A stretch of 64,000 nt of DNA, taken from NCBI RefSeq assembly GCF_900107455.1, contig NZ_FNQB01000001.1, forward strand, positions 2,604,001-2,668,000, written 5' to 3'. Positions 29,187 to 54,408 of the stretch are shown one piece after another. The position numbers and the translations under genes were made by a program. This DNA is from Asanoa ishikariensis (lineage in GTDB: Bacteria > Actinomycetota > Actinomycetes > Mycobacteriales > Micromonosporaceae). The notes below the pieces were generated by a model. That model saw nothing but the letters and a program-made list of their open reading frames with translations. It searched no databases and had not been told where the DNA came from. The stretch's first letter is position 1, and the number at the start of each line of letters is the position of its first letter.

Positions 29187-29636
29187 ATGATGCTGCTCGA
29201 CCCCCGTGGCCCGCGCTTCGCCGCCGGCCTTACCGCGATCGTCTTCGTGTTGATCCTGGTGACCGGCGCCTGGTGGCTCGCCCTCGCGCAGGCCGTCGTG
29301 TTCGCGATCACCGCGATCGACCCACGCAAGGGTCCCTACTCACTGCTCTTCCGCACGCTCGTGGCACCGCGGCTCGGCCCGACGACGGAGCGCGAGCCCG
29401 CCGAGCCCGTGCGGTTCGCGCAGGCGCTCGGCGGCGTGTTCGCGATCGTCGCGGCCATCGGCTTCGGCGCCGGCGGAACGGCCGGCACGGCAGTCGGAAT
29501 CGTGGCGGCCGCGTTCGGGTTGGCCGCCGCGTTCCTCAACAGCGCGTTCGGGCTGTGCCTCGGATGCGAGCTCTACCTCGCCGTGCGCCGGATGACCGGA
29601 CGGCCGATGGCCGCCCGCATCATCACCAACGACTAG
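29187..29636 (+). CDS. DUF4395 membrane protein
   Basis: This is a 149-residue membrane protein of DUF4395 type, with three hydrophobic segments (about 15-40, 75-95 and 98-118) and the family C-terminal motif GLCLGCELYL carrying two cysteines. A GAAAGG site precedes the ATG. The function is not established. Proximity to a thioredoxin-like protein and a cysteine leader peptide suggests persulfide or disulfide transport across the membrane. Its stop shares the four bases CTAG with the convergent response regulator. Confidence 0.78.
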   Translation: MMLLDPRGPRFAAGLTAIVFVLILVTGAWWLALAQAVVFAITAIDPRKGPYSLLFRTLVAPRLGPTTEREPAEPVRFAQALGGVFAIVAAIGFGAGGTAGTAVGIVAAAFGLAAAFLNSAFGLCLGCELYLAVRRMTGRPMAARIITND

Positions 29637-36741: not shown

Positions 36742-38157
36742 GTGTCCACCGCCAACGACAGCTTCGACCCTTCCACCACCCTCTGGCGCGACGGCCGTCC
36801 GGTCTATGACCGGCGCGACACGGTCTGTGTGGTCGGTGCCGGCGCCAGCGGCCTCGCCGCCGTCAAGAACCTGCGCGAGCACGGCTTCGGCGTCGACTGC
36901 TACGAGCGGGAGACCAGCGTCGGTGGCGCCTGGAACTGGCGGCACGACCGCAGCCCGGTCTACGCCAACACCCACCTGATCTCGTCGAAGCCGTTCACCC
37001 AGTTCCCGGACTTCCCGATGCCGGACACCTGGCCGGACTACCCGCACCACAGCCAGCTCCTGTCCTACCTGGAGCGGTACGCCGACCACTTCGACCTCAA
37101 CTCGCACGTCTGGTTCGGCACCGAGGTGGTCAAGGTCGAGCCGGCCGACGACACGAGCTGGGACGTGACCACCCGCAGCGCCGGCGGTGTCGGCTCCGAG
37201 CGGACCCACCGCTACCTGGCCGTCGTGCTGGCCAACGGGCACAACTGGGCGCCGAAGCAACCGGCCTACGAGGGCCTCGACGAGTTCCGCGGGCAGACCA
37301 TCCACGCTTCCGCTTACAAGGACCCCAAGGAGCTGCGCGGCCGCCGGGTGCTGGTGGTCGGCGGCGGCAACACCGGCTGTGACATCGCGGTCGAGGCGGC
37401 GACGTCGGCGAGCCAGACCTGGCACTCCACCCGGCGCGGCTACTGGTACCTGCCGAAGTATCTGCTCGGCCGCCCCGCCGACCAGGTCAACGACCAGATG
37501 CAGGCGACCCGGCTGCCGCTGGGAGTGCGGCAGTGGCTGGCCGCCCGCACGCTGCGGCTCACCGTCGGCGACCAGAGCCGGTTCGGGCTGCCCAAGCCCG
37601 ACCACAAGGTCTTCGAGACCCACCCGATCTCCAACAGCCAACTGATCTATCACCTCGGCCACGGCACCATCACGCCCGTGCCCGACGTGAAGCGCTTCCA
37701 CCGGAGCGGGGTCGAGCTCACCGACGGCCGCCAGGTCGAGCCCGACCTGGTCGTCTTCGCCACCGGCTACCTGCCCCGGTTCGAGTTCCTCGCGCCCGAG
37801 ATCCTCGGCGCCGACGAGCACGGCCGGCCCACCCTCTACCTGCACGCCTTCCCGCGTACGTACCCGACGCTCGCCGTCGCCGGCCTGCTGCAGCCCGACT
37901 CCGGGCTGTTCCCGCTGGTGCACTGGCAGACCGTGCTGATCGCGCGCTGGCTGCGGCTGCGCGACCGCGACCTGGAACGGGCGGCCGCGTTCTGGTCGCG
38001 TGCCTCGGCCGACGTGGGCAAGCGCTGGAACCGGGCCCGGGTCAAGGACTCCACCCGGCACTGGTTCGAGGTCAACCACGTCGACTACCTGCGGGCCCTC
38101 CAGGGCGCCCTGGACGAGCTCTCCCCGGCCACCGCGACGGCAAGGAGCACGCGATGA
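36742..38157 (+). CDS. Flavin-containing monooxygenase
   Basis: This 471-residue protein binds FAD via VCVVGAGASGLAAVKNL (about 30-46) and NADPH via VLVVGGGNTGCDIAVEA (about 203-219). Between them is the class B signature FRGQTIHASAY, matching the F-x-G-x-x-x-H-x-x-x-Y pattern of FMO and Baeyer-Villiger types. GGAAGG lies eight bases before the GTG at 36742. It oxidises a soft nucleophile or ketone that cannot be named. Its end overlaps the next gene (ATGA), a hydrolase-fold protein, suggesting a two-step degradation. Confidence 0.85.
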   Translation: MSTANDSFDPSTTLWRDGRPVYDRRDTVCVVGAGASGLAAVKNLREHGFGVDCYERETSVGGAWNWRHDRSPVYANTHLISSKPFTQFPDFPMPDTWPDYPHHSQLLSYLERYADHFDLNSHVWFGTEVVKVEPADDTSWDVTTRSAGGVGSERTHRYLAVVLANGHNWAPKQPAYEGLDEFRGQTIHASAYKDPKELRGRRVLVVGGGNTGCDIAVEAATSASQTWHSTRRGYWYLPKYLLGRPADQVNDQMQATRLPLGVRQWLAARTLRLTVGDQSRFGLPKPDHKVFETHPISNSQLIYHLGHGTITPVPDVKRFHRSGVELTDGRQVEPDLVVFATGYLPRFEFLAPEILGADEHGRPTLYLHAFPRTYPTLAVAGLLQPDSGLFPLVHWQTVLIARWLRLRDRDLERAAAFWSRASADVGKRWNRARVKDSTRHWFEVNHVDYLRALQGALDELSPATATARSTR

Positions 38158-38963
38158 CCTCCGTGCGGATCATGCGTACCCGCGACTGGGCCCACCCGGT
38201 GCCGCCCGCCCGCCGCGAGGTGCTCACGGCGACCCCCGAGCTGCCCGACGACAGCAAGCCACCGGTGCTGTTCGTGCCGGGTTTCGGGCACGGCGCCTGG
38301 GCGTACGCGGAGCACTGGCTGGAGCACGCCGCCGGGCGCGGCTTCGCGGCCCACGCGGTCAGCCCGCGCGGCCACGGCAACAGCGAGCCGGCGCCGAAGG
38401 CGGAGCTACGCGCGTACGCGCACGACGTCGTGCAGGTCGCCGCCGGACTGCCGCGCCAGGCGGTGCTGGTCGGCCACGGCGCCGGCGCGCTCGTGGTGGC
38501 GCACGCGCTGGCTCGCTATCCCGCCCGCGCCGGTGTGCTGGCCGCGCCGGTGTTCGGCGGCTGGGCGACGCTGGGCCTGGCCCTGCGCCACAACCTGTTC
38601 GGCACCCTGCCGGCCGCGTTCGGTGGGAAGCTGCGGCTCGCCCGGCGGCAGTTGTTCAGCCGGGCCCTGCCGGAGCCGGCCGCCCGGGAGTACCTGCGGC
38701 GGATCGGCCACGCCTCGCCGCGCGCCCAGTGGGAGCTGTTGCGGTCCCGTCCGCCGGAGGAGCCGGTCGGTGCCCCGCCGGTGCTGGTGGTCGGCACCCC
38801 CGACGACCGGGTGGTGCCCCGGTCCGCGCTCGACAAGGTGGCCCGCCGCTACGGTGGCGCACCGCTGCTGTTCCCCGGCATGGGCCACGACCTGATGCTC
38901 GACGCCCGCTGGCCGGAGCCCCTCGACGCGATCCTGGACTGGCTGGAGAAGGGCGAGCACTAG
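38154..38963 (+). CDS. Alpha/beta-hydrolase fold protein lacking the nucleophile serine
   Basis: This 269-residue protein of the alpha/beta-hydrolase fold has the usual PGFGHGAWAY oxyanion region. The nucleophile elbow reads GHGAGA, with Gly109 at the expected Ser/Asp/Cys. An acidic residue (GTPDDRVVP) and late histidine (GMGHDLM) remain. The family thus keeps two members of the triad but not the nucleophile. It could be a cofactor-independent enzyme, such as a proton-transfer lyase or dioxygenase-like member, or a binding protein. It is co-translated with the monooxygenase via an ATGA overlap. Its TAG stop forms part of the CTAG duplication around the MITE. Confidence 0.78.
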   Translation: MTSVRIMRTRDWAHPVPPARREVLTATPELPDDSKPPVLFVPGFGHGAWAYAEHWLEHAAGRGFAAHAVSPRGHGNSEPAPKAELRAYAHDVVQVAAGLPRQAVLVGHGAGALVVAHALARYPARAGVLAAPVFGGWATLGLALRHNLFGTLPAAFGGKLRLARRQLFSRALPEPAAREYLRRIGHASPRAQWELLRSRPPEEPVGAPPVLVVGTPDDRVVPRSALDKVARRYGGAPLLFPGMGHDLMLDARWPEPLDAILDWLEKGEH

Positions 38964-39123
38964 GGGTGTCTCGTGGATCAAGGCGGCACTCCGACGGCCC
39001 CAGACGACGCCCGACCGCACGCGAAGAGCGGCCAGATACAACACCGGTATCCGACCACTCTCCGCGCACGCCCGGACGCCGCCTGGGCCTCGCCGGAGCA
39101 CCACCTTGATCCACGAGACACCC
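38964..39123. mobile_element. 160-bp MITE with 20-bp terminal inverted repeats, CTAG duplication
   Basis: GGGTGTCTCGTGGATCAAGG (38964-38983) and its exact complement (39104-39123) bound a 160-bp non-coding element, with a further partly matching 8 bases inward. On both sides the four bases CTAG occur (38960-38963 and 39124-39127), as a target-site duplication. Known IS5-family elements duplicate YTAR, which CTAG fits, so an IS5-type transposase could have moved it in trans. Removing one copy plus the element restores a single CTAG shared by the stops of the flanking convergent genes. Confidence 0.8.
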
Positions 39124-40164
39124 CTAGCTGCTGGAACGGACCACCAACGTCGGCTCGAAGACGACCGCGGTGGTCTCGCGCCGGGGCTCGTCGATGAGGG
39201 CCATCAGCATCCGGGCCGCCTCGGCCGCCATGTCCTCCAGGGGCTGGCGGACCGTGGTCAACTGCGGGCGGGCGGCCAGTGCGGCGCTGCTGTCGTCGAA
39301 GCCGACGACCGCGATCTCGTCGGGCACCCGGCGGCCGAGCTCGTGCAGCGCGCCCAACCCGCCCTGGGCCATCAGGTCGTTGGCGACGAAGACGCCGTCG
39401 AGGTCGGGATATTCCGCCAGCAGCTCGCGCATGCCGCGGTCGCCGCTGTCGTAGGTGAAGTTGCCGGTGACCGACGGGACGAACAACTGGCCGTGCCGGG
39501 CCATCGCCGCGCGGAAGCCGCTGCTGCGGTCCACGCTCGCGGGCACGTCGATCGGGCCGGTGATCATGCCGATCCGGCGCCGGCCACGGGCCACCAGGTG
39601 GTCAGCGGCGAGCGCGGCACCGCGGTCGTTGGCCACGTCGACGTGGCTGATCGGCACGGGGCGGGCCGGGCGACCGATCACCACGCCGGCGAGCCCGGCG
39701 TCGGCGAGGAGCTGGGGGAGCGTGTCGCCGGGGTGCAGCGAGAGCACCACCGAGCCGTCGGCCTGGCCCTGGCGCAGGTCGCCGACGAGCTGGCCGCGGG
39801 CCTGGTCGGCGCCGACGAGCTGGAGCGCGAGCTGGATGCCGGCCGGGCGCAGCGCGCTCATCAGGCCGCCGACGACCCGGCCGAAGAACGGGTCGCTGAA
39901 GAACCGGCTCATGAACGGGTCGTCGTCGTGGCTCTCCGAGTCGGAGACCACGAGGGCGATCGTGCCGGTGCGCCGGGTGACCAGCGAGCGGGCCGCGCGG
40001 TTGGCCACGTAGCCCGTGGCGTTCACCGCGCTCCACACGACCTCGTGCAGCTCCGGGTTGACGTTGCGGATGCCGTTGATGACGCGGGACACGGTGGCGC
40101 GGGAGACCCCGGCCAGCCGGGCCACGTCCTCCAGGGTCGGCAGGCGTGCGTTGTCAGTGGTCAC
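39124..40164 (-). CDS. LacI-family transcriptional repressor of the beta-glucan module
   Basis: This 346-residue LacI-type regulator has an N-terminal helix-turn-helix and hinge (TLEDVARLAGVSRATVSRVIN, in outline, about 8-28) and a periplasmic-binding-protein-like sensor domain. The GTG at 40164 is taken because the HTH starts seven residues later and an upstream stretch has no domain. A GAGAGGG site lies about ten bases before it. It sits next to the glucan hydrolase gene and near three identical palindromes, one of them 36 bp upstream of its own start, so autoregulation and control of the GH genes is likely. The inducer is unknown, probably a beta-gluco-oligosaccharide. Confidence 0.88.
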   Translation of the reverse strand: MTTDNARLPTLEDVARLAGVSRATVSRVINGIRNVNPELHEVVWSAVNATGYVANRAARSLVTRRTGTIALVVSDSESHDDDPFMSRFFSDPFFGRVVGGLMSALRPAGIQLALQLVGADQARGQLVGDLRQGQADGSVVLSLHPGDTLPQLLADAGLAGVVIGRPARPVPISHVDVANDRGAALAADHLVARGRRRIGMITGPIDVPASVDRSSGFRAAMARHGQLFVPSVTGNFTYDSGDRGMRELLAEYPDLDGVFVANDLMAQGGLGALHELGRRVPDEIAVVGFDDSSAALAARPQLTTVRQPLEDMAAEAARMLMALIDEPRRETTAVVFEPTLVVRSSS

Positions 40165-40199
40165 GTCGCGCGTCGGCCCTCTCGTGTCGGACCGGCAGG

Positions 40200-40213
40200 G
40201 GAGAGCGCTCTCC
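40200..40213. promoter_or_regulatory. Operator GGAGAGCGCTCTCC upstream of the lacI gene
   Basis: A perfect 14-bp palindrome, 36 bp upstream of the regulator's GTG. It is identical to two copies at 43701 and 43806, pointing to autoregulation by this LacI-type repressor. Confidence 0.8.
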
Positions 40214-40276
40214 GCCGCCGGCGTGGCCAACGCTAGCAGGGTGGCGGACACCGGAGCGCCCGCCACCCATGCGCGC

Positions 40277-43833: not shown

Positions 43834-45150
43834 ATGGCTTTCCCGTCCACCTTCTGGTGGGGCGCGGCCACCGCCGCCTATCAGGTCGAGGGCGCCGTGG
43901 CGGAGGACGGCCGGGTGCCGTCCATCTGGGACACGTTCGCGGCGACGCCGGGCGCCACGGTCAACGGGGACACCGGCGCGGGGGCGGCCGACCACTACCG
44001 CCGCTTCGCTGACGACGTCGACCTGATGGCCTCGCTCGGCCTGACCGCGTACCGGTTCTCGGTGTCCTGGCCCCGGGCGGCCGACCTGGGCTTCTACGAC
44101 CGGCTGTGCGACGCGCTGCTCGCCCGCGGCATCAAGCCGGTCGCCACGCTCTACCACTTCGACCTGCCGCAGTGGGTCGAAGACACCGGGGGCTGGACCC
44201 ACCGCGACACCGCCTACCGGTTCGCCGAGCACGCCGCGGAAGTGGCGAAGCGGATCGGTGACCGGGTCGCGATGTGGAACACCCTCAACGAGCCGTGGTG
44301 CTCGGCGTTCCTCGGCTACGGCACCGGCGTGCACGCGCCCGGCCGGCGGGCCGACCCGTTCGCGGCCGTGCACCACCTGCTGCTGGCGCACGGGCTCGCC
44401 GTCCCGGTGCTGCGGTCGGCGTCACCCGGGTCCATCGTCAGCATCGCGCTCAACGCGGGCACCGTGCGGGCGGTCACCGATGCGCCGGCCGACCTCGACG
44501 CCGCGCGCCGGATCGACGGCCTGCTCAACCGGATCTTCTTCGACCCGGTGCTGCGCGGCGCGTACCCGGCCGACGTGCTCGCCGACACCGAGGGGGTCAC
44601 CGACTGGGCGTTCGTGCGCCCCGGCGACCTGGCCACGATCGGTGCGCCGCTGGACGCGCTGTGCGTCAACTACTACCAACCCGACCTGGTCGGCGCGGCC
44701 GCCTCTCCTGTGGACGATGGCAGCCCCTACCCGACCGGTGGCCGCGTCGTGCACCATCAGGCGCCCGGCCCGGTGACCGAGATGGGTTGGCCGATCGACC
44801 CGACCGGGCTGCGCGACATGCTGCTGCGGGTCACGGCCGACTACGGGCCGCTGCCGCTCTATGTCACCGAGAACGGCGCCGCCTTCGTGGACACGGTGGT
44901 CGCTGGGCGCGTGCACGACGTTGACCGGATCGACTACCTGCGGACCCACCTGGCGGCCGCGCACGAGGCGATGGCGGCGGGCGTCGACCTGCGGGGCTAC
45001 TTCGCCTGGTCGCTGCTGGACAACTTCGAGTGGGCGCTGGGCTATGGCAAGCGGTTCGGGCTGGTGCACGTCGACTACGAGACGTTCACGCGTACGCCCA
45101 AGGACAGTGCCCTCTGGTATCGCGACGTGATCGGTCGTGGCGCGGTCTAG
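43834..45150 (+). CDS. GH1 beta-glucosidase
   Basis: This is a 438-residue GH1 enzyme, cleaving terminal beta-glucosyl units from short glucans in the cytoplasm (no signal peptide). The acid/base is E153 in TLNEPW and the nucleophile E346 in VTENG. It opens with FPSTFWWGAATAAYQVEGA, the family signature. It is shorter than the usual 450-480 residues: SWPRAADLGFYD joins parts normally separated by about 12-14 residues containing the P-x-G-x-G-x-x-N loop. The ATG at 43834 follows AAGGGAG and lies 14 bp after an operator. It converges with otsA, sharing CTAG at the stops. Confidence 0.9.
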   Translation: MAFPSTFWWGAATAAYQVEGAVAEDGRVPSIWDTFAATPGATVNGDTGAGAADHYRRFADDVDLMASLGLTAYRFSVSWPRAADLGFYDRLCDALLARGIKPVATLYHFDLPQWVEDTGGWTHRDTAYRFAEHAAEVAKRIGDRVAMWNTLNEPWCSAFLGYGTGVHAPGRRADPFAAVHHLLLAHGLAVPVLRSASPGSIVSIALNAGTVRAVTDAPADLDAARRIDGLLNRIFFDPVLRGAYPADVLADTEGVTDWAFVRPGDLATIGAPLDALCVNYYQPDLVGAAASPVDDGSPYPTGGRVVHHQAPGPVTEMGWPIDPTGLRDMLLRVTADYGPLPLYVTENGAAFVDTVVAGRVHDVDRIDYLRTHLAAAHEAMAAGVDLRGYFAWSLLDNFEWALGYGKRFGLVHVDYETFTRTPKDSALWYRDVIGRGAV

Positions 45151-47809: not shown

Positions 47810-48538
47810 TTGCTGTACTGGCTGCTGAAGTACGTGATCCTCGGCCCGTGGGTGCGCCTCGTCTTCCGGCCCATCGTCGAGGGGCGCGACAACGTGCCCG
47901 CGAACGGCGCGGCGATCATCGCGAGCAACCACCTGTCGTTCTCCGATTCGATCTTCATGCCTTTGGAGGTACGGCGAAAAGTCACCTTCGTGGCGAAAGC
48001 CGAGTACTTCACCGGTAAAGGGATCAAGGGCTGGCTGGTGAAGATGTTCTTCATCAGCACGGGCACGATCCCCGTCGACCGGTCCGGTGGGCGGGCCGCC
48101 CAGGCCGCCCTCGATACCCAGCTCCGGGTCCTGCTGGCCGGCAACCTGGCCGGCATCTACCCGGAGGGCACCCGGTCGCCGGACGGCCGGCTCTACCGGG
48201 GCAAGACAGGTGTGGCGAGGCTCGCACTGCTCAGCGGCGCCCCCGTGGTGCCGGTGGTGATGCTGAACGCGGACGAGATCCAGCCGCCGGGGAAGGTCAT
48301 CCCGAAGATCAAGCGGGTCCGGATCCGGTTCGGCGAGCCGATCGACTTCGCCCGGTACGCGGGCATGTCCGGTGACCGGTTCGTCGAGCGGGCGGTCACC
48401 GACGAGATCATGTACGAGCTGATGGAGCTCTCGGGCCGCGAGTACGTCGACATCTACGCGCAGAAGGCGAAGAGCGCCGCCGCCCGGGTGCCCGGCCCGG
48501 CCAAGGCCAGCGATCCACCCACAGCCGTGGCCGCCTAG
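47810..48538 (+). CDS. plsC: 1-acyl-sn-glycerol-3-phosphate acyltransferase
   Basis: This 242-residue PlsC-family enzyme converts lysophosphatidate to phosphatidate at the membrane. The catalytic motif HLSFSD (H41, D46) and the glycerol-phosphate motif EGTRSPDG are present. The TTG at 47810 is preferred because the family begins MLYWLLKY-like sequence and GGAAGG is seven bases ahead; GTG at 47777 is in frame, but that extension lacks family resemblance. It matches the mycobacterial gene in the same order (Rv2182c, from memory). The stop shares CTAG with the convergent cyclase gene. Confidence 0.88.
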   Translation: MLYWLLKYVILGPWVRLVFRPIVEGRDNVPANGAAIIASNHLSFSDSIFMPLEVRRKVTFVAKAEYFTGKGIKGWLVKMFFISTGTIPVDRSGGRAAQAALDTQLRVLLAGNLAGIYPEGTRSPDGRLYRGKTGVARLALLSGAPVVPVVMLNADEIQPPGKVIPKIKRVRIRFGEPIDFARYAGMSGDRFVERAVTDEIMYELMELSGREYVDIYAQKAKSAAARVPGPAKASDPPTAVAA

Positions 48539-53538: not shown

Positions 53539-54408
53539 GTGGCAGACGACGAGGCCGCACTCTCGGCCCTGCGTGGCGGATGGCAGCACGTGCCCTGCCG
53601 CCTCGACCCGGTGTCGCTCGGCGGCACCGCGGCCACCGCCTGGGTGGCCAGCATCGCCGGCACGTGTCACCTGGTCACCCGGGTGGCGCTCGGCAAACGG
53701 CTGCGGCTGGAGGCGGGCCTGACCGCGGCCTGCCATCTCGCCGAGCGTGGGGTGGCCGCGGGCGAGCCGGTGCGCGCCCTGTCCGGCGCGCTGGTCGCCG
53801 AGCACGACGGCTGGGCGTACGCCCTGGTCCGTTGCCCGCCCGGCCGGCCGCTGTCGGCCGGCGACCCGCTCGACCAGCAGTGGTGGGGTGACGCCCTGGG
53901 CCGTCTGCACTCCGGAATGGACGGTTTCGCGCACGCCGGCCTGGCACCGTGGCACCGGGTCCGCCCGGACGCGCCGCATCTCGACGTGCGGCCGTGGCTG
54001 CGCGCGGCGGTCGGGGCCGCCTACGCCGCGCTGACCCGGCTGACCGTCACCGACCGGCTCACGTACGGGGTGCTGCACGGCCAGCCGAGGGCCACCGCGT
54101 TCCGGCTCGACCCGTCGACCGGCCGCACCGCGGTGGTCTGCTGGGGTCCGGCGGCCACCGGCCCGCTGGTCGCAGACCTGGCCTCGGCCGTCACGCACGC
54201 GGACGGTGCGGGCACCGAGGACCTGGTCGACGGGTACGCGGCGGCGGGTGCGGTGCACCGCGACGAGATCGAGTCCGCGCTGCCGGTGCTGCTCCGCTTC
54301 CACTGGGCGACCCGGGCCGACGCCGCCGCCCGCCGCCTGGTGTCCACCCCGGACGACGACGCGGCGCGGGCGACGCTGTCCGCCGCCCACGCCGCCCTCG
54401 CCGTTTAG
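53539..54408 (+). CDS. Phosphotransferase-fold protein with degenerate catalytic motifs
   Basis: This 289-residue protein has the shape of aminoglycoside-phosphotransferase-family proteins: an N-lobe (about 1-105), the linker RCPPGRPLSAGDP and a C-lobe. The catalytic loop that normally reads HGDxxxxN is LHGQPRATAFRLD, with Gln182 replacing the catalytic Asp and no Asn. The metal-binding Asp is replaced by Cys201 (VVCWGP). The nucleotide transfer chemistry is thus unlikely, and it looks like a pseudokinase or binding protein. The start at GTG 53539 has only weak ribosome binding support. Convergent with the DUF1028 gene, the stops overlap (TTAG). Confidence 0.7.
   Translation: MADDEAALSALRGGWQHVPCRLDPVSLGGTAATAWVASIAGTCHLVTRVALGKRLRLEAGLTAACHLAERGVAAGEPVRALSGALVAEHDGWAYALVRCPPGRPLSAGDPLDQQWWGDALGRLHSGMDGFAHAGLAPWHRVRPDAPHLDVRPWLRAAVGAAYAALTRLTVTDRLTYGVLHGQPRATAFRLDPSTGRTAVVCWGPAATGPLVADLASAVTHADGAGTEDLVDGYAAAGAVHRDEIESALPVLLRFHWATRADAAARRLVSTPDDDAARATLSAAHAALAV

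Follow-up and report, generated by a model that had tools for sequence, protein, structure and literature searches.

What kind of sequence can settle exactly where two convergent genes end and leave both of their stop codons in place? The question is raised by a 162-bp element in a 64,000-bp stretch of the Asanoa ishikariensis genome (the window; contig NZ_FNQB01000001.1, positions 2,604,001 to 2,668,000), which lies between the genes for an alpha/beta hydrolase and a LacI-family regulator. At its safest, our answer is that the element belongs to a widespread subfamily of IS5/IS427-type miniature inverted-repeat transposable elements (MITEs) whose members insert into stop codons, which they restore. 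More surprising is that a long hairpin in these elements is kept up with a strand bias and is aligned with replication in two chromosomes.

The element and its empty site

A preliminary description of this DNA had proposed a MITE of about 160 bp with perfect inverted ends between two CTAGs. We refined the element to 162 bp with terminal repeats that are perfect over 21 bp (24 nt with CTAG included), a size insufficient for a transposase. Its short length, perfect inverted ends, dispersed copies and empty site in congeners all agree with the designation as a MITE. The repeat search returned inverted arms at 38960-38996 and 39091-39127, each 37 nt long and 89% complementary. The 20-mer at the element's end occurs twice in the window (chance expectation 0.01), and no further site in the window matches it even with up to three mismatches. 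Copy lengths vary by 1-5 nt, which argues against a small reading frame common to the copies.

Genes were predicted with a purpose-made codon-usage caller, and Pfam was used for domain names. Both flanking stops are TAG at the edges of the element, the host supplying TA and the element the third letter; each bordering CTAG is made of the host TA, the host base outside it and one element base. As had been described, the window has three more convergent pairs with the same shared CTAG; in a fourth the shared sequence is TTAG (Table 1), so that the proposed state before insertion is a normal junction here. Comparison with five congeners (G001 to G005) bore this out: the uninterrupted shared CTAG that had been predicted is present in G001 and G004, and G003 has a shared CTAA with the same spacing. 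The junction is diverged in G005, and G002 has no match to the right gene within the fetched stretch. The element was not seen in the 120 bp following the left gene in any of the five.

Insertion into TA rebuilds stop codons

Insertion sites were compared across 105 elements minus L244 (a duplicate of one in L237) and L267 (an array), leaving 103 Asanoa sites, among which L257 and L266 represent one shared, orthologous insertion. TA borders the element on both sides at 54 sites, on one side at 39 and on neither at 10. The flanking 4-mers at the double-TA sites are unequal in 41 cases and equal in 13, and all the equal ones are CTAG. Since CTAG is palindromic, these 13 sites cannot separate a 2-bp from a 4-bp duplication; pairs such as TTAG..CTAA fit only a duplication of TA, and the duplication is therefore TA. 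The 4-bp CTAG or YTAR duplication given in the preliminary description was rejected on the strength of the 41 unequal sites, the adjacent G and C being element bases. Rebuilt targets read YTAR at 43 of the 54 double-TA sites, and YTAR is the preferred target, not the duplicated unit.

An element that starts with G or A after the TA restores TAG or TAA. The TA lies within the stop of a predicted gene at 68 of the 103 sites: that of the left gene alone at 31, that of the right gene alone at 17 and both at 20. Among YTAR sites in the flanking DNA and the rest of the window the count is 56 of 237 (Fisher p = 2e-13); without the shared orthologous insertion the elements give 67 of 102. Both stops are used at 20 of the 103 sites, compared with 14 of the 237 control sites. 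Loss of insertions within genes is enough to account for this enrichment, and an active preference for stop codons is not needed. By gene arrangement, 35 sites are convergent, 51 tandem and 11 divergent, two lie inside a predicted gene and four were undetermined.

Copies and distribution

A DNA search of the A. ishikariensis genome found eight near-full-length copies (83-100% identity, the window copy counted) as well as remoter copies with different ends. With a covariance model, 44 matches were obtained in the same genome counting both strands, and at least 19 distinct full-length elements, the window copy included, are among the matches listed; the preliminary description's suggestion of looking for other copies in the genome was thus rewarded. 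The model rests on a first set of elements collected by a tip search (at most 3 mismatches in 15), with a minimum of 14 matches among 20 end bases and a length of 154-168 bp. Of 75 candidates 66 were kept (L031 and L047 were dropped by name), and 62 of these entered the alignment and the model, L023, L096, L109 and L122 being omitted as degenerate. Tip and length served as search criteria, and their constancy in the first set is partly by construction.

The family is present in all six Asanoa genomes examined and, at E 1e-6, in 16 of 41 Micromonosporaceae genomes, A. ishikariensis included. A phylum-wide sample gave matches in 5 of 396 genomes, again including our own, a figure that underestimates copies elsewhere on account of strict filters and a genus-trained model. 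Two elements from this sample match plasmid records of Streptomyces and Embleya (22 records with one query, 56 with the other); L211 and the window element, used as queries, had no match in the plasmid collection. The Streptomyces and Embleya elements are 138 to 211 long. No repeat is annotated at the 13 plasmid places examined, in feature tables that lack RNA genes and with several records nearly unannotated; one of these places overlaps with a protein annotated as hypothetical, and another touches a gene end.

Several copies depart from the standard form. L267 (C2:1728000-1733000 of the A. ishikariensis genome) holds at about 2200-2560 a degenerate tandem array of approximately three cores between two mutated ends, with units of roughly 90-110 bp. 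L118, L128, L098, L085, L099 and L123 (near position 2000) are deletion derivatives of about 50-100 bp that keep the ends and have lost the tip, some of them still bordered by TA. In the Streptomyces plasmid records L279, L282 and L283, one arm carries an additional GC-rich palindrome of roughly 30-45 bp, apparently a second small repeat nested within the family element.

Rfam 15 gave no match up to E 1 in positions 38800-39300 of the window, and in nine related loci three matches up to E 5, none of them on the element. Near one copy in the A. ishikariensis genome there is a transfer-messenger RNA/tRNA-like match to RF00023 (L004, 1350-1426), at 40 bits and below the gathering score of 47. Full-text literature searches, read by titles and abstract openings and with subscription journals mostly uncovered, returned no description of these elements; a review of prokaryotic MITEs (PMC10969869) does not match actinobact or Streptomyces anywhere in its main text. 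The family is a structured repeat of Micromonosporaceae and Streptomyces for which no name was found in Rfam or the literature.

A hairpin that folds better on one strand

The window element has a predicted folding energy of -105.9 kcal/mol (z -12.2) on the plus strand and -160.8 kcal/mol (z -20.0) on the minus strand. This asymmetry is general. The strand carrying the tip ATACCGGTGTTGTAT (hereafter the strong strand) folds better in all 66 elements of the first set, with means of -148.6 versus -110.4 kcal/mol. The strand preferred by the covariance model is the stronger-folding one in 51 of 51 and in 49 of 49 matches, the latter including one copy twice, with margins of at least 9.9 and 17.8 kcal/mol, respectively. 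In the 62-element alignment, 97.1% of the cells in predicted pairs hold standard pairs, compared with 81.2% after shuffling and 38-43% when slid, and both partners have changed in 41 of the 62 predicted pairs.

On the weak strand many mismatches are A.C, and the same positions hold G.U on the strong strand. We counted one-sided changes away from Watson-Crick pairs on a tree, over all opposed inner columns, and obtained G.U:A.C ratios of 73:13 in set A1 and 47:9 in set A3, which holds 46 further copies outside the model (46 distinct of 48 rows, from the same genomes as A1). Counting all opposed columns lowered these ratios from the 59:4 and 40:8 that were given by the structure predicted from the strong strand, a structure that can exclude A.C columns. 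The element ends gave 29:0 (A1) and 18:2 (A3), and on terminal branches, with the predicted structure, there were 33 changes to G.U and 2 to A.C. Raw counts in unpaired columns were 32:33 (A1) and 16:26 (A3). The same pattern extends to 13 of the 18 elements located in Streptomyces and Embleya, with 89 G.U and 3 A.C cells in the strong-strand-predicted structure.

Conservation on one strand with tolerance of G.U is the usual signature of RNA. Covariation and one-strand G.U tolerance are both found in the family, the G.U excess being possibly in part mutational. Single-stranded DNA of one strand is an alternative to RNA, since the predicted DNA fold also favours that strand (-82.1 versus -54.7 for the window copy). 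A role of the folded strand in cis, as part of a 3' untranslated region, was considered and set aside for want of a gene orientation bias: the strong strand runs with the gene whose stop lies at the element's edge in 42 cases and against it in 46, and tandem pairs divide 25:26.

Orientation relative to replication

The positions used here are those of the higher-scoring strands among the matches listed, corresponding to 25 elements in G004 and 15 in G002. Along contig C1 of G004, the orientation of the strong strand switches at 2.00-2.15 Mb and again at 6.12-6.37 Mb. A dnaA motif, sought in a sampled part of the bracket and in evenly spaced samples of the chromosomes, lies at 2.0746 Mb in G004, at the orientation switch, and at 2.436 Mb in G002, inside the bracket set by the elements. 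On the assumption of a terminus opposite dnaA, the strong strand serves as leading-strand template for 23 of the 25 copies in G004 and 12 of the 15 in G002, or 35 of 40 pooled (p = 1.4e-6, among the copies listed). The figure for G004 rises to 25 of 25 if the terminus is placed at 6.12-6.37 Mb. IS427-type matches in G004 were examined in the same way and have no replication bias (5 of 13). As a separate observation, 12 of the 13 IS427-type transposase matches on this contig are on its minus strand, unrelated to the replichores. The replication bias is so far an observation on two chromosomes of Asanoa.

Variable ends and candidate helper elements

Elements of different genomes have a common core and tip, and their outer 18-20 bp vary widely between copies while agreeing within a copy. 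The end-exchange comparison covered 96 of the 103 elements (length 158-168). The two ends agree in at least 18 of 19 bases in 72 of the 96 elements. Of 866 copy pairs whose cores are 88% or more identical, 200 have ends with no more than 70% identity. The hairpin core shared by relatives is about 162 nt. In a second, model-found set 44 of 49 matches are exactly 162 long, and 43 of the 49 full-length matches have CCGG[TC]G at the tip. Replacement of the ends on both sides together suggests that the family has probably been served by different transposase subgroups. One possible route to such joint change is fold-back copying, with one arm as the template for the other.

MITEs of the IS630/Tc1-mariner type also use TA and have a preference for TA within CTAG, and a helper of this type was considered; its transposase domain DDE_3 (PF13358) had no match in the A. 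ishikariensis genome, the only one searched. PF01609 and PF13359 were likewise discarded as helper domains, with no match in that genome; PF13359 was found in two of the six Asanoa genomes, above the cut-off in one. Matches to DUF4096 (PF13340) occur in all six. Eleven complete insertion sequence (IS) elements of 922-1021 bp were found in G003, G004 and G005, all of them inside CTA..TAG and with at least four end types, with ends such as GGGCGTGTCCTGCCGATC. A 924-bp IS has two overlapping open reading frames (ORFs) matching NF033580 IS5 family transposase, DUF4096 and DDE_Tnp_1. G004 also has the type-B hairpin copies L217-L220, whose ends agree with those of its 924-bp IS at 17 of 18 bases; beyond the ends no likeness between hairpin elements and IS was detectable.

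The IS427 group of the IS5 family and the hairpin family are alike in duplicating TA inside YTAR/CTAG and in ends of 18-21 bp that mostly begin with GG. The examined helper has two overlapping transposase ORFs, as expected for this group, and the hairpin elements differ in resembling the helpers detectably in the ends only. Of eleven IS427-group entries from Table 2 of PMC3281130, ten duplicate 2 bp and one 4 bp; the 2-bp duplication of TA is likewise what we find in the hairpin family.

Interpretation and alternatives

We think it fairly probable that all these properties belong together: an IS427-type MITE that inserts into stop codons and rebuilds them, a hairpin kept up on one strand, and an orientation aligned with replication. 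The element would be moved in trans by IS427-type transposases of the IS5 family, as its ends and target suggest. It inserts into the TA of YTAR, duplicating the TA alone, and its outer G...C, sometimes A...T, turns the TA back into a stop on either side. In GC-rich actinobacteria a good share of YTAR sites are stops, and insertions into stops or stop overlaps would survive by sparing both proteins. The interior forms one long hairpin whose core is kept while the ends differ, and a folded single strand, more likely RNA than DNA, would be useful to the element. Strong hairpins on the lagging-strand template are prone to being cut or to blocking replication. With the strong strand on the leading-strand template, as in the two Asanoa chromosomes, the weaker-folding strand is the lagging-strand template, and copies of opposite orientation may have been lost through this hazard. 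Why one strand should fold at all is something that we infer.

Several results weigh against this interpretation. The alignment with replication is absent from G035, of another genus, where the best fit was 17 of 26 (353 of 500 shuffles), or 19 of 28 with two more listed matches (263 of 500). It is weak in the contigs of G000, G001 and G003 that have at least two listed elements, with 49 of 72 pairs on the same strand (81 of 5000 shuffles). The paired signal is an excess of G.U, as A.C is not significantly depleted relative to transversions (4:26 versus 33:92, p = 0.16), and the event counts come from parsimony on a tree of short sequences whose copies share ancestry. Per site, the unpaired columns of A1 are biased in the same direction: the rate of C to U is 1.5 times that of G to A, and the rate of A to G is 2.4 times that of U to C, so that mutation may account for some of the G.U excess. 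The even split of the strong strand relative to the adjoining genes also belongs here, and around the window copy no sigma-70-type promoter was found.

The helper is a further difficulty. The window's type-A ends agree with any sequenced helper at 15 of 18 bases at best; the IS5 family, named in the preliminary description, is supported as helper family by the eleven complete IS5/IS427-type elements of congeners, with ends up to 17 of 18 identical to end type B. The exact 14-mer end of the window copy has no IS-spaced pair in the six Asanoa genomes. A scan of the genome collection for the type-A end, with one base excluding most MITE copies, gave a single match, in Asanoa hainanensis, which is taken to be the short derivative at G003:C31:450625. 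The A. ishikariensis genome has no PF01609 or PF13358 match, and its DUF4096 consists of two pieces and one complete domain in a long ORF that lacks a catalytic-domain match. With no intact helper seen in its own genome, the window copy is probably not mobile there now. The complete domain ends a 526-aa ORF (L145, 1345-2925, on C3) whose middle looks TetR-type by eye, as if a truncated IS had been fused to a TetR-like regulator.

Four other explanations have to be weighed against these data. An ordinary MITE, whose hairpin is a relic of fused inverted repeats under random decay and whose asymmetry was inherited from one ancestor, would suit the relatedness of all copies and the existence of internally deleted, tip-less ones, some of them TA-bordered (L118, about 50 bp). 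Random decay would leave unexplained the preference for G.U over A.C on the tree, terminal branches included, the compensatory changes in two thirds of the predicted pairs and the exact length of 162 in most model matches of the second set, and we regard it as unlikely. We have still a little less faith in mutation without selection, by which cytosine deamination or another strand-biased process would make G-C into G.T on one strand. In its favour are the 56 of 59 inner changes to G.U that are C to U and the leaning of the unpaired A1 columns. The excess in paired columns nevertheless goes beyond a 1.5:1 null (p = 7.5e-7 in A1, 1.7e-4 in A3) and a 2.4:1 null (p = 0.003 and 0.03). Unpaired columns of A3 are mixed per site (1.9 and 0.4 times), and at the A1 ends A to G is no rarer than C to U (16 and 13 changes). 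Many unpaired columns face each other in the hairpin and are an imperfect neutral control. Mutation may contribute to the G.U excess but does not seem sufficient.

Selection at the level of DNA only is a more serious contender, though one that we would not expect to be correct. Survivors would be those that fold poorly on the lagging-strand template, A.C would accumulate there, and G.T on the other strand would be a by-product without any RNA function. The orientation of the copies in G004 and G002, the DNA folding energies of the window copy and the lack of bias among the IS copies of G004 all suit it. It would, however, be expected to produce transversion mismatches too, whereas standard pairs make up 97% of predicted-pair cells and about 90% over all opposed inner columns of A1 (2600 Watson-Crick and 597 G.U of 3565); the absence of bias in G035 also speaks against it. 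Finally, the elements could be bidirectional terminators that spread and were kept between convergent genes for the benefit of the host. The hairpins of both strands, at -106 and -161 kcal/mol, and the 35 convergent sites would be in keeping with this, but the tandem, divergent and within-gene sites would not. The single terminator-like match lies inside the tip and not after the stem, and a two-way terminator needs no pairing kept on one strand; we consider this origin highly improbable.

A broader version of our preferred interpretation, in which we have limited confidence, sees an actinobacterial superfamily of selfish hairpins that exist as folded strands of RNA or single-stranded DNA. They would swap their ends according to the IS5-type transposase available, avoid a perfect palindrome on the lagging-strand template by using G.U and not A.C, and hide in rebuilt stop codons.

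Features of the window

Table 1. Coordinates of the element, its parts, the flanking genes and comparable gene junctions in the window
Feature	Coordinates	Strand	Basis or remark
Mobile element, G...C, 162 bp	38963..39124	- (best-folding strand of the family here)	Tip read as ATACCGGTGTTGTAT
Element with CTAG borders, extent as first described	38960..39127	.	Sequence, repeat search
Left terminal inverted repeat, 21 bp	38963..38983	+	Sequence, repeat search
Right terminal inverted repeat, 21 bp	39104..39124	-	Sequence, repeat search
Duplicated TA, left copy	38961..38962	.	With G38963 forms the TAG stop of the left gene
Duplicated TA, right copy	39125..39126	.	Together with C39124 gives the right gene's minus-strand TAG stop
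Hairpin tip GATAC-AACACCG-GTATC	39035..39051	-	Minus strand: 7-nt loop CGGTGTT closed by ATAC/GTAT
Left convergent gene, alpha/beta hydrolase	38154..38963	+	Codon-usage gene caller and Pfam; stop rebuilt by element
Right convergent gene, LacI-family regulator, start uncertain	39124..40266	-	Gene caller and Pfam; stop rebuilt by element
Shared CTAG, other convergent pair	29633..29636	.	Uninterrupted junction type
Shared CTAG, other convergent pair	45147..45150	.	
Shared CTAG, other convergent pair	48535..48538	.	
Shared TTAG, fourth other convergent pair	54405..54408	.	

Relation to known repeats and significance

REP/RAYT systems are repeated extragenic palindromes, as is the hairpin family, which adds TA flanks, long perfect ends and IS5-type helpers. 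Among known short repeats with inverted ends, Correia elements yield transcripts that are cut by RNase III and ERIC is found at gene ends (PMC10969869), and QMITEs give small RNAs (PMC5896051). These share small size and inverted ends with the hairpin family and differ from it in that the cited accounts, as far as drawn on here, describe no constant core with many ends and no strand-specific conservation of a helix. Intergenic RNA stem-loops of Borrelia plasmids resemble the family in having compensatory changes in repeated stem-loops near gene ends; their stems are short, and neither TA insertion nor end exchange is described in the part of PMC2674063 used here.

The family offers a clean rule for the harmless entry of mobile DNA into dense, GC-rich genomes: target the TA of a stop codon and bring a G. 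It is also a natural testing ground for the survival of long palindromes through replication, since both orientations and both strands of one element are open to comparison. Micromonosporaceae and Streptomyces are groups that are mined for drugs, and hairpins at the ends of their genes could affect transcripts there.

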